The notes under the pieces are model-generated. The model had not been told where the DNA came from and ran no database searches. It saw only the letters and a program-made list of their open reading frames with translations. From Anaerocolumna chitinilytica (GTDB lineage Bacteria > Bacillota > Clostridia > Lachnospirales > Lachnospiraceae): a DNA stretch of 64,000 nt. Location of the stretch: positions 2,112,001-2,176,000 of the forward strand of contig NZ_AP023368.1 of NCBI RefSeq assembly GCF_014218355.1, given 5' to 3'. How positions within the stretch are numbered: position 1 is the first letter of the stretch; each line of letters opens with the position of its first letter. This document shows positions 12,778 to 21,967 of this stretch, one piece after another. A program made the translations under genes and the position numbers.

Positions 12778-12876
12778 CTAATTATATCATACCATAAAAT
12801 CAAGATTTTTTCAAGACTTGTAATAGATTGTAAACTGACCTATAATGAGGTACTTACTTTGAAGGAGATAGTTATT

Positions 12877-18765: not shown

Positions 18766-19407
18766 ATGGCAGATAAAATTCGGGTTATAATAGCAGATGA
18801 CAGTGACTTCGTCCGGGATGGAATGAGAATTATTCTAGGCGTAGACGAAGAATTCGAAGTAACAGGTTGTGCGGCTAACGGAAGAGAAGCGGTGGAGGCA
18901 GCCAGGAGCAATTCCGCTGATATTGTGTTAATGGATATCCAAATGCCGGTGATGGATGGCATTGAGGCCACCGGGATAATAGTGGAGGAGAAGCTGGCTA
19001 AAGTACTTATTCTGACTACCTTTGATGACTATGATCTGGTAAAACAGGCAATTAGAAAAGGTGCTAAGGGCTATCTTATTAAAAATCATACACCGGACCA
19101 GTTAAAGCAGATGATAAAATCTATACATAATGGTGCCGGAGTCATGGAGGAAAGTATACTGGCAAAACTGACGGAGGATGATGCAGGTATACTAAGCGGA
19201 GCGAAAAATTTTCCAACCGAATTATATACAGAACGGGAAATGGATATCATTCGGGCTGTAGCCGAAGGTTTATCCAATAAAGAAATCGGTGAAAAACTCT
19301 TTTTGTCGGAAGGTACTGTAAAGAATTATATTAGCAATATTTTGGATAAAGAGGGAATCTCACACCGAACTCAATTGGCGGTGTACTACTTAACGGGTAA
19401 GCGATAA
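18766..19407 (+). CDS. response regulator, NarL/LuxR family
   Basis: This 213-residue regulator has a receiver domain with acidic pocket ADDSD (10-14), phosphoacceptor Asp57 in VLMDIQMP, a conserved Thr in LILTTFDD and Lys in KGYLIKN. A C-terminal LuxR-type HTH follows (LYTEREMDIIRAVAEGLSN onward). GGGAGG precedes the ATG, 11 bp after the kinase gene. It would bind DNA as a phosphorylated dimer and activate the ABC exporter genes. Confidence 0.9.
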   Translation: MADKIRVIIADDSDFVRDGMRIILGVDEEFEVTGCAANGREAVEAARSNSADIVLMDIQMPVMDGIEATGIIVEEKLAKVLILTTFDDYDLVKQAIRKGAKGYLIKNHTPDQLKQMIKSIHNGAGVMEESILAKLTEDDAGILSGAKNFPTELYTEREMDIIRAVAEGLSNKEIGEKLFLSEGTVKNYISNILDKEGISHRTQLAVYYLTGKR

Positions 19408-19457
19408 TTTGCATTACTGAAACAGGTATAAAATTGTAGATAGTTTTAAAACATTAA

Positions 19458-19515
19458 CAGAGCCCATGTGCCTACTGTCAGCTTTATCGATAGGCCATGA
19501 GGTTCTGGTTTTTTT
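19458..19515 (+). terminator. terminator of the ABC/two-component operon
   Basis: The arms around 19458-19475 and 19489-19507 pair in blocks (CAGA/TCTG, CATG/CATG, GCCTA/TAGGC), and seven T residues follow at 19509-19515. Confidence 0.7.
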
Positions 19516-19541
19516 GGGAGCAGAAAGGTCATAAAATTTAC

Positions 19542-19570
19542 TTGACAAAAGGTGGTGACAGTTGTAACAT
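19542..19570 (+). promoter_or_regulatory. promoter of the blaI-like/blaR1-like operon
   Basis: TTGACA (19542-19547) and TAACAT (19565-19570) are separated by 17 bp. The first operator-like copy overlaps the -10, a classic repression geometry. The predicted leader is about 210 nt long. Confidence 0.75.
19556..19568. promoter_or_regulatory. BlaI/MecI-type operator copy 1
   Basis: TGACAGTTGTAAC contains the dyad GACA-N2-TGTA, close to the TACA-N2-TGTA core recognised by BlaI/MecI repressors. It overlaps the -10 element. Confidence 0.65.
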
Positions 19571-19580
19571 GAATACACGG

Positions 19581-19593
19581 TGACAGATGTAAC
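19581..19593. promoter_or_regulatory. BlaI/MecI-type operator copy 2
   Basis: TGACAGATGTAAC repeats copy 1 with one base changed, 25 bp further on and near the expected transcription start. Paired operators are usual for this repressor family. Confidence 0.65.
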
Positions 19594-19595
19594 CA

Positions 19596-19703
19596 AGAGC
19601 AATCAGAGCAATCAGAGCAATCAGAGCAATCAGAGCAATCAGAGCAATCAGAGCAATCAGAGCAATCAGAGCAATCAAAGCAATCAAAGCAATCAAAGAA
19701 ATC
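19596..19703. repeat. 12-unit 9-bp minisatellite in the 5' leader
   Basis: Nine perfect copies of AGAGCAATC (19596-19676) are followed by two AAAGCAATC and one AAAGAAATC. The tract is 108 bp, starts 2 bp after operator copy 2 and ends 82 bp before the start codon at 19786. Decay at one end and perfect identity at the other suggest slippage-driven growth. The rest of this 378-bp gap is covered by the terminator, promoter and operators listed here. Confidence 0.95.
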
Positions 19704-19785
19704 AAAGTATTAAATTGCTGATAAAGTATCAAACATAGCAATGAAAGTAACTCGCTTACAGTAAAACCCAAGAAAGGAACAGAGG

Positions 19786-20172
19786 ATGAATCCAAATATT
19801 AGCCGCATTTCCCAGGCAGAATTCGAGGTAATGAAAATATTATGGAAAGCCTGCGGACCAGTTCCTACAGGATATATCTGCCAAGAACTTTTTACAGAAC
19901 TGGGATGGGACCGTTCAACTGTCCGTACACTGCTAAAGCGGCTGACTGAAAAAGGGGCGGTTATAACACAGAAGATACAGGTTCTTTGCTATCTGCCCGC
20001 AATCTCGGAGAAAGAGTATTGTGATGAACAGACCAAGAGCTTTGTACAGCGCTTATACGGAGGCAGTGCCACACGTTTAGTAAGTTCACTGGTAGAAAAT
20101 TATAATCTAACAGAGTCAGATATCGAGGAGCTTCGGAGCCTTTTAAAATTGGAAGGAGAGGACAATGAATAA
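19786..20172 (+). CDS. BlaI/MecI/CopY family transcriptional repressor
   Basis: The 128-residue winged-helix protein has the family core ISQAEFEVMKILWK (residues 8-21), then GWDRSTVRTLLKRLTEKGAV as the recognition region, and a C-terminal dimerisation helix set. In the BlaI/MecI system the repressor is cleaved after its sensor-protease partner is activated. AAAGGAA lies before the ATG. It overlaps the protease gene by 8 bp. The two operator-like copies upstream match its family. Its target here is probably its own operon, perhaps others elsewhere. Confidence 0.9.
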   Translation: MNPNISRISQAEFEVMKILWKACGPVPTGYICQELFTELGWDRSTVRTLLKRLTEKGAVITQKIQVLCYLPAISEKEYCDEQTKSFVQRLYGGSATRLVSSLVENYNLTESDIEELRSLLKLEGEDNE

Positions 20173-21967
20173 TTTGTTTAAAGAAGTCTTATCCATGTCG
20201 CTATCCGGCTCTCTGCTAATTCTTTTAATACTTTTGATAAGACCGATAGTAAAGAATCGGTTTTCCAAAGCCTGGCAGTATTACCTCTGGATTATTGTGC
20301 TGATCCGTCTTATATTGCCATTTTCGCCGGAATTTAGTATGGTAAATAATCTATTCCACCAGAAGCCGATACATAATTATACGCAAACGATGGTAAGCCC
20401 CCAGAATACCAACCCATCTGTCCAGGAAAATAACTCACAGAGTCAACCGGATAAACCGGCGGGTGAGGATTCTGTTGTAACCAGTCAGAAAGAAGAGAAA
20501 ATATCTATCGACCTGTGGAGGATAGGAATCTATTTGTGGCTGTCTGTTATGGTTCTTCTCTTTCTAATAAGGCAGATTAGATATTTCAGCTTTCTGCGTC
20601 TAATGAAGAACTCATCAGAACCTGTGGCAGATAAGAGAATAAAGTTGCTATTAGAGAGAGCCGCCAGGGAGGTCAGAATTACCAGGGTGCCTCAGTTGAA
20701 AGTTAATAGCCGGATTGCATCACCTATGCTGATAGGGCTTATCAAGCCTTCTGTTTATCTGACAGATTTAACACTGGGATGGGATGATGCCAGACTCTAT
20801 TATGTGCTGCGGCATGAGTTGATGCATTATAAAAGGCATGATCTATGGTACAAGTGGTTTAGCGGACTAATTCAATGCATTCACTGGTTCAATCCACTGG
20901 TCACTGTTATGAACAAACAGATAAATCTGCAATGCGAGATATCCTGTGATGAAGCGGTTGCAAGAGACTTAAGCAGAGAAGAAAAGATGGTATATGGAAA
21001 TGTATTATTGGATGCAGTTTCAGAGAATACCCCAAGATTTTCTTCTGTCTTATCCTCAACCTTGTATGAGGATAAGAAGAGCATGAAAGAAAGGATAAGT
21101 ACAATTATTATGGCAAATCAAAAATCAAAGAAGTCAAAAACTTTGTCAATCATTATAACCTTGGTTTTTTGCGCTGCAGCATTTTGGCTGGGGGCTTATA
21201 CCATGGGAGGCAGGAATACTCAAAAAAGTACAGCTAGTACTGTAAATAATCAGGGAACCAACTCCGGTAAAGATGATACCTCAAATAGTGGCGCAACAGG
21301 CAGTGATACTGACAATCAGAGCAGTAATAACACGGATTCACAAAACAGTGAGAATTCACAGAATGATAATACAGATAGTGTAAACAATGGTAATACACAA
21401 AATAATAATACAGATAATGTAAACAACGGTAATTCACAGAATGATAATAGTAATACACCAGCAGGCAGTGATAAGCCTTCAGCTAATACATCAGGTAAGG
21501 ATCCGGAGGCCACCGCAGCACCTGATAAGGACAATACATCTGCTTCAGAGAATGATTCAATTGTATACAGCAACACAGATTTCGGCTTTGATGTAAAATT
21601 ACCCGCTGATTGGAAAGGTTATACCATAGTGGAAGATACCTGGCAAGGGACAAATCTTTCAGGGAAAGACGCGGGAAAAGTAATTGAATCAGGAACAAAA
21701 CTGTTATTACGTAATCCTAACTGGACGAAGAAAAATCCCTATCAGGATATTCCTATTATGATATTTACAAAAGAACAGTGGAAAGCGATAGAAGCAGAGA
21801 AAGTTGCCGTAAGTGCCGCTCCTGTGCCTCCCAGCAAACTGGCAGAAAATTCCAAATACGTATTTGCTCTGCCGCCCCGATATAACTTTGCTTTCCCCAC
21901 CGGTTACGAAGAAGTTGAGAAAATCATGGATAGCAATCCCATAACCGGAACGGAGAACATGAAATAG
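20165..21967 (+). CDS. BlaR1/MecR1-type M56 metalloprotease with atypical sensor domain
   Basis: The 600-residue membrane protease has the M56 zinc motif HELMH (His217, Glu218, His221) in RHELMHYKRHD, flanked by the usual spans, and one further span near residue 330. The segment after it is not a penicillin-binding domain. It is a linker of about 110 residues rich in Asn, Ser, Asp and Thr, including a 13-residue repeat, followed by a compact domain of about 130 residues starting YSNTDFGFDVKLPADW and lacking SxxK, SxN or KTG motifs. The protease half should cleave the BlaI-like repressor on signal. The signal is unlikely to be a beta-lactam. It overlaps the repressor gene. Confidence 0.85.
   Translation: MNNLFKEVLSMSLSGSLLILLILLIRPIVKNRFSKAWQYYLWIIVLIRLILPFSPEFSMVNNLFHQKPIHNYTQTMVSPQNTNPSVQENNSQSQPDKPAGEDSVVTSQKEEKISIDLWRIGIYLWLSVMVLLFLIRQIRYFSFLRLMKNSSEPVADKRIKLLLERAAREVRITRVPQLKVNSRIASPMLIGLIKPSVYLTDLTLGWDDARLYYVLRHELMHYKRHDLWYKWFSGLIQCIHWFNPLVTVMNKQINLQCEISCDEAVARDLSREEKMVYGNVLLDAVSENTPRFSSVLSSTLYEDKKSMKERISTIIMANQKSKKSKTLSIIITLVFCAAAFWLGAYTMGGRNTQKSTASTVNNQGTNSGKDDTSNSGATGSDTDNQSSNNTDSQNSENSQNDNTDSVNNGNTQNNNTDNVNNGNSQNDNSNTPAGSDKPSANTSGKDPEATAAPDKDNTSASENDSIVYSNTDFGFDVKLPADWKGYTIVEDTWQGTNLSGKDAGKVIESGTKLLLRNPNWTKKNPYQDIPIMIFTKEQWKAIEAEKVAVSAAPVPPSKLAENSKYVFALPPRYNFAFPTGYEEVEKIMDSNPITGTENMK
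21357..21450 (+). repeat. 39-bp coding tandem repeat in the receptor linker
   Basis: Two full copies (21357-21395 and 21396-21434) and a partial third encode QNDNTDSVNNGNT-like units in the low-complexity linker of the M56 protein. Identity between full copies is high but not perfect. Confidence 0.75.

Follow-up and report, generated by a model that had tools for sequence, protein, structure and literature searches.

Results

A BlaI/BlaR1-type operon follows the repeat

We analyzed a 64,000-nucleotide stretch of the genome of Anaerocolumna chitinilytica (contig NZ_AP023368.1, positions 2,112,001 to 2,176,000), referred to here as the window; coordinates in it are counted from its first nucleotide. 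Positions 19542 to 19785 carry a predicted promoter, two operators and a nine-base-pair tandem repeat, and on direct reading of the sequence an earlier note had placed and described this region correctly. It is followed on the plus strand by blaI (19786..20172), which encodes a 128-residue repressor of the BlaI/MecI/CopY family. The protein matches the Penicillinase_R profile PF03965 at 95.1 bits (E = 4.7e-27; cut-off, 22.6) and scores below the cut-off in all seven NCBIfam models that it matches. The next gene on the same strand (20165..21967) overlaps blaI by 8 bp and encodes a BlaR1-like M56 receptor of 600 residues, in which residues 7 to 314 match PF05569 (E = 4.2e-63; 213.7 bits) and the motif HELMH is present. 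With both PF03965 and PF05569 represented, "BlaI/BlaR1-type", as the operon had been called, is correct for its architecture.

Beta-lactam sensing by this receptor is not supported, because no penicillin-binding domain match was obtained and no beta-lactamase family match lies in the window. Pfam returned M56 only, with no penicillin-binding sensor domain at the receptor C terminus; the genome contains 10 matches to PF00144 and 4 to PF13354, none of which falls in the window. The NCBIfam model blaR1_generic aligned over profile positions 8 to 320 of 585 only (163.7 bits, against a cut-off of 400), and BlaR1 chains from the PDB aligned over receptor residues 9 to 350 only. The C-terminal ~140 residues (residues ~451 to 600), which have no Pfam match, form a domain that recurs in the order: 12 of 392 genomes have it, eight of these at E < 1e-40 and the other four as weak or fragmentary matches; 41 columns are invariant across 7 sequences. 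A seven-row structural model of this sensor domain (mean pLDDT, 70.1) gave no Foldseek match at E ≤ 0.001. The domain was also seen in genome G040, in an open frame of only 210 residues.

Predicted promoter and paired operators

A consensus scan of positions 19350 to 19850 returned a single promoter-like site on the plus strand, with the -35 hexamer TTGACA (19542..19547) and the -10 hexamer TAACAT (19565..19570) separated by a 17-bp spacer. Shuffled sequences averaged 1.5 such sites, and the scan by itself is weak evidence. Stronger support for this predicted promoter comes from its conservation in the two nearest relatives that we found, namely, locus L010 of the congener G012 (BlaI 79% identical) and locus L039 on a contig of MAG CTSoil_066 (BlaI 65% identical), which have TTGACA-17-TAACAT and TTGACT-17-TAACAT, respectively, at the same place.

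Two putative operators accompany this promoter on the plus strand. Operator 1, GTGACAGTTGTAAC (19555..19568), lies between the hexamers and overlaps the -10 hexamer, and operator 2, GTGACAGATGTAAC (19580..19593), lies just downstream of the predicted transcription start (near 19577); a single base distinguishes the two, their starts are 25 bp apart and both match GTGACANNTGTAAC exactly. Both relatives have counterparts of the two operators, again 25 bp apart, with one core mismatch in the operator 1 counterpart of L010. The TACANNTGTA-type dyads predicted at the operon's own promoter, that is, the two GTGACANNTGTAAC dyads, are thus largely kept in sequence and spacing. A promoter with two near-identical operators 25 bp apart, as described earlier, is therefore borne out by the sequence itself and by conservation in L010 and L039. 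One operator between the hexamers and another after the predicted start would be a natural site for a blocking repressor.

The 16-mer at operator 2 (19579-19594) fits all 16 positions of RNYKACANNTGTMRNY, given in PMC7253601 as the consensus of CopY/BlaI/MecI-type operators, whereas operator 1 departs from it at the last position. This consensus is a loose one, occurring at 15 places in the genome (operator 2 and 14 others), compared with 25 for the reversed control. Exact GTGACANNTGTAAC is confined in the 5.62-Mb genome to the two operators. With up to one mismatch there are 24 matches, the two exact ones included (13 and 11, versus 12 and 15 for the reversed pattern); since this is not above the reversed-pattern control, there is no sign of a regulon outside the operon.

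Among 397 genomes of the family (three of the genus, including the source genome; G012 absent), the paired-operator pattern was found at the operon's own locus only. By a loose criterion, 17 of the 87 regions examined upstream of BlaI-family genes in the genus (the window among them) have paired dyads 22 to 30 bp apart, and paired sites have been described for BlaI proteins of Clostridium thermocellum (PMC8457756); as far as predicted sites can tell, paired operators are therefore ordinary. The C. thermocellum proteins concerned, BlaI_0696 and BlaI_1845, resemble the present repressor in autoregulation, paired inverted-repeat sites and very small regulons, whereas their motif is GTCTAT/GACTAT rather than GTGACANNTGTAAC, and no array is mentioned in the available part of that report.

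Upstream of the promoter, a long hairpin followed by a T run (19458-19516; folding z, -2.50) lies 3' of a response-regulator gene and is a probable terminator between that gene and the BlaI operon. The consensus scan had missed this hairpin.

The leader array and its standing in the genome

The nine-base-pair minisatellite (19596..19703, plus strand) lies directly behind operator 2 and consists of nine perfect AGAGCAATC units (19596-19676), two AAAGCAATC units and a last unit, AAAGAAATC (19695-19703). TRF placed it at 19596-19704 with a period of 9, 12.1 copies, 98% matches and a score of 190, the highest among the 11 rows for the window, and in the direct-repeat listing the unit-to-unit spacing is 9 throughout; both readings agree with the 12 units, nine of them perfect, that had been counted before the start codon. 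The array is more than a chance match, and with near-identical head-to-tail units it falls within the definition of a bacterial minisatellite (units of about 6 to 60 bp). Its perfect units lie on the operator side and its decayed units (the two AAAGCAATC and the AAAGAAATC) on the gene side, an order that would be expected from slippage with decay at the edge.

To place the array in its genome, we surveyed tracts with units of 2 to 30 bp and at least three perfect copies in 80 sampled 20-kb stretches plus the window, 1.664 Mb in all (2,500 of the 1,600,000 bases in the sampled stretches are N). Seven such tracts were found, among which the array is the longest perfect one (82 bp) and the only one with at least four perfect copies. 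TRF scores above 190 were reached in the genome by L146, an imperfect array of 16.6 copies of a 24-bp unit inside an open reading frame (ORF) (score, 516), and by several arrays of longer period. A two-unit 18-mer has no second place in the 5.62-Mb genome at up to two mismatches and no reverse-strand match at the same tolerance; the search thus gave neither a genome-wide repeat family nor a long antisense partner for this 18-mer. Membership of the array in a TAACTGA-like repeat family was also rejected, given the different unit and the single genomic place.

The array is absent from the nearest relatives

No tandem array is present in the leaders of L010 and L039, and the congener G012 is entirely without the array. 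From operator 2 to the ATG there are 192 nt in the window, compared with 83 nt in L010 and 17 nt in L039; the L010 figure would be 35 nt if an upstream in-frame ATG is the true start (144-residue frame). The distance is 12 to 21 nt in four more distant paired-operator loci (L014, L020, L030 and L037). The non-array part of the gap in the window amounts to 84 nt, which is close to the entire gap in L010. Because operators and promoter are kept in both nearest relatives and the array is missing there, the window's lineage has probably gained about 110 bp immediately behind operator 2; the perfect units, and the lack of the array in both near relatives, would suit a recent tract that is prone to slippage. 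Length alone does not make a leader unusual, since long gaps without an array exist in the genus, where an operator-like dyad can start as far as 154 bp ahead of the BlaI match (L194).

A global alignment of the window with L010 gave no convincing homology for a conserved leader hairpin. In G012 we also observed a 470-residue ORF (L070, 10049-11461, minus strand) just upstream of the BlaI promoter, which by eye resembles a group II intron reverse transcriptase.

Predicted folding of the leader

On direct reading, neither the promoter nor the operator pair nor the interval between the Shine-Dalgarno sequence and the start codon includes the array, and a change in the number of nine-base-pair units cannot shift the reading frame. 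The 82 nt of leader between the array and the start codon include a Shine-Dalgarno-like AAAGGA (19773..19778, plus strand) 7 nt before the blaI start. When the leader was folded as a series of 5' truncations, from 12 units to none, the Shine-Dalgarno region (19772-19785) was unpaired at 0.69 to 0.71 and the start codon at 0.71 to 0.72 at every truncation; no effect of unit number on the computed accessibility of the ribosome site was found between 12 units and 0.

The whole leader folded slightly worse than shuffled sequences (z = 0.79; 157 of 200 shuffles at least as good), the array alone gave z = -0.37, and the leader behind the array folded no better than shuffles (z = 0.78). A graded effect of unit number exists on paper at a weak predicted hairpin (19714..19742, plus strand) formed by ATTGCT (19714-19719) and AGCAAT (19737-19742). 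Its pairing probability falls from 0.61 without the array to 0.26 with all units, because the 5' arm is predicted to pair with array units instead (rising from 0 to 0.53 as units are added); such an effect would speak against a purely neutral array. The earlier suggestion that the array might tune leader structure or spacing, and through them expression, is not supported: no promoter, operator or start-codon spacing and no computed accessibility of the ribosome site changes with unit number, and the weak hairpin is the one graded structural effect. A search of positions 19300 to 19900 matched no known RNA family in Rfam apart from one chance match (E = 0.39).

Arrays upstream of BlaI-family and control genes

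The earlier note had called a contingency-locus design of this kind not usual for BlaI/BlaR1 systems. The genus set comprised 89 BlaI-family matches in 15 genomes, 87 of which were examined (two partial matches, in G006 and G007, were left out). The upstream regions, 390 bp long (380 bp for 30 of them), were positioned from the protein alignment, with no filter for ORF-free DNA, and an array was defined by a period of 6 to 30 bp, at least 4 copies and a TRF score of at least 50. So defined, arrays are present in 7 of the 87 regions, the window included, and the claim fails within the genus. Some of these arrays do not lie behind operators, and their units are unrelated across loci except for those of L198 and L204.

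For comparison, control genes were taken from 40 stretches of 20 kb in six congeners, with mechanical ORF starts serving as gene starts. In these six genomes, arrays were found at 5 of 54 BlaI-family genes and at 11 of 263 control genes having at least 150 bp of ORF-free upstream DNA, among which divergent genes can share one array (one-sided Fisher P = 0.12). Setting the ORF-free filter on the control genes to 100 or 200 bp gave P values of 0.08 and 0.16, and arrays with a TRF score of at least 100 gave 6 of 54 versus 16 of 263 (P = 0.15). Against the unfiltered control (13 of 565 genes), the 5 of 54 BlaI-family genes were in excess at P = 0.015, and counting shared control arrays once (10 distinct arrays) lowered this to P = 0.006. 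The outcome hinges on the choice of control, and we consider the filtered one fairer because BlaI genes usually head operons and many unfiltered control genes lie inside operons. A BlaI-specific enrichment, promising at 7 of 87 and at P = 0.015 without filtering, was given up at the 0.08 to 0.16 obtained with the filtered control. Arrays beside BlaI-family genes are not clearly special in the genus, and related bacteria often have such arrays ahead of their genes. In the source genome, arrays lie upstream of 4 of 464 filtered control genes and of 1 of 5 BlaI-family genes, namely, the locus that prompted the question.

Several other BlaI loci of the genus carry repeats of their own. L198 (G012) and L204 (G014) have purine-rich repeats with units of 8 to 18 bp, reaching to within about 35 bp of the aligned gene start; judged from their first codons alone, the two are apparently orthologous BlaI leaders. 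In this second, apparently orthologous BlaI group, the repeat-rich leaders of L198 and L204 stand beside a G011 counterpart, L184, that has no leader array, a difference that, if the orthology holds, shows array turnover. L184 has a 34-bp array of 2.6 copies 189 to 275 bp upstream of the BlaI match, and its unit holds a BlaI-type operator and the -35-like stretch TTGACTTTT, making up a repeated operator-promoter module. Upstream of their BlaI-gene promoters, L191 and L211 (both G010) and L171 (G004) have arrays with 26-, 24- and 17-bp units, respectively; the TTGACA hexamer follows the end of the array within about 2 bp in L191 and L211. A further leader array of the genus is that at L261 (G012), where 12.9 copies of a 17-bp unit reach the start of an unrelated ORF at 12811.

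Discussion

We take the locus, with a probability of roughly 70%, to be an ordinary BlaI/M56 operon under autorepression, whose 5' leader has acquired a nine-base-pair minisatellite that expanded through replication slippage. Transcription would be blocked by BlaI dimers bound to operator 1, in the -35/-10 interval, and to operator 2, just past the start. Upon a signal, the membrane receptor would remove BlaI, and RNA polymerase would then transcribe through the array into blaI-blaR1. With transcription presumably starting near the predicted point, the array would lie inside the transcript, where its roughly 108 nt would stay mostly unpaired and act as a passive spacer that only lengthens the leader; its origin by slippage and its lack of effect are both what we infer. 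We see it as a passive spacer because promoter, operators, Shine-Dalgarno spacing and reading frame are unaltered, and the array is most likely tolerated in an unstructured leader. Counting against a passive array are its rank as the longest perfect tract in 1.664 Mb, its place directly behind an operator, the small number of upstream arrays in the source genome (4 of 464) and the excess over the unfiltered control (P = 0.015). As it stands, the locus is a clear instance of a young minisatellite set in a conserved regulatory region whose array-free state can be seen in two relatives, and it warns that, in genomes with many such arrays, not every leader repeat should be read as a contingency locus.

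The contingency-locus reading of the array, which is not supported, would have slippage vary the number of units, and the number of units set leader stability or blaI translation, so that the set-point of BlaI and its receptor shifts between clones. We regard it as unlikely: the ribosome site is not predicted to change with unit number, the array is placed outside promoter and operators, and the filtered control is not clearly exceeded (P = 0.12). What speaks in its favor are the nine identical units, unmatched in perfect length in the 1.664 Mb surveyed, the absence of the array from both relatives, the P value of 0.015 against the unfiltered control and the precedents for leader repeats at uspA2 (PMC7302503) and hmw1A (PMC8262952) and also at nadA (PMC2791445). 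Its more specific form, in which unit number acts through leader folding and stability on the BlaI set-point of a BlaI-M56 operon that senses no penicillin and yields heritable variation in threshold, is slightly less probable still. If true, it would be an unusual case in which signaling, rather than a surface structure, is phase variable.

Among these known cases, the array is most similar in position to that of uspA2. The number of (AGAT)n units at uspA2 of Moraxella catarrhalis differs between strains, and mRNA changed by as much as 3.37-fold in one strain but modestly in another (PMC7302503). There, as in the window, tandem units sit in the 5' untranslated region (PMC4679880), well upstream of the start codon, but uspA2 is a surface protein gene, whereas the present array belongs to a repressor-receptor operon. 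Since the uspA2 leader array affects mRNA, position alone cannot exclude an effect here. At hmw1A of Haemophilus influenzae, more units of (ATCTTTC)n in the 5' untranslated region lower expression (PMC8262952). The P2 transcript of hmw1A carries the repeats in its leader, as the blaI transcript would; there, however, the repeats overlap the -10 box of P2 and the -35 box of P1, whereas the array here begins about 20 nt after the predicted start. By analogy with uspA2 or hmw1A, the number of units might tune the operon. The third precedent, nadA of Neisseria meningitidis, is like the window in having a tandem tract beside the operators of a ligand-responsive repressor, NadR, but its operators flank the tract and unit number alters their spacing (PMC2791445). 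Here both operators lie on one side of the array, so the nadA mechanism cannot apply, and a nadA-like change in operator spacing was rejected. Judged by titles and the openings of abstracts, papers pairing BlaI, BlaR1 and tandem repeats (on staphylococcal typing, resistance genomics and other genomes) describe no leader array, and none for BlaI/BlaR1 appeared among the matches listed from the broader literature.

Considerably less probable is an action of the array at the RNA level, its units forming a series of single-stranded binding sites, all alike, through which a small RNA or an RNA-binding protein would govern translation or the stability of the leader. The transcript would indeed contain an unstructured row of identical sites, and a similar idea has been put forward for TAACTGA repeats near start codons in Beggiatoaceae (PMC4679880). 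However, the two-unit stretch is confined to one genomic place and, with two mismatches allowed, matches nothing on the reverse strand, and there is thus no sign of a regulon or of a long antisense partner; moreover, the array is absent from two orthologous leaders (L010 and L039), and Rfam yielded a chance match only (E = 0.39 in 19300-19900). A coding array is very improbable and was rejected. The candidate products were a short peptide VTDVTK(SNQ)n... encoded in the leader, with a GTG at 19580 as its start, and that of an 85-residue frame on the minus strand. Both frames are open, but the unit lacks a stop in any plus frame, so that an open frame is to be expected anyway; the GTG falls within operator 2 and has no Shine-Dalgarno sequence, the minus-strand frame has no Pfam match, and L010 and L039 lack the array to which these frames are due.

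Some further matches and repeats were recorded. A 35-bp match in G004 (L068) to the decayed end of the array was set aside as AAATCAAAG-type low complexity at the start of a 424-residue ORF unrelated to BlaI. The two-unit 18-mer has matches in viral contigs, in 11 stretches. Within the receptor gene, the linker contains an 11-bp match to the leader array, CAATCAGAGCA at 21313-21323, which is the only other copy of that array 11-mer in the window and perhaps due to chance; the linker also has a 39-bp tandem repeat of its own, in 2.5 copies (21353-21449).
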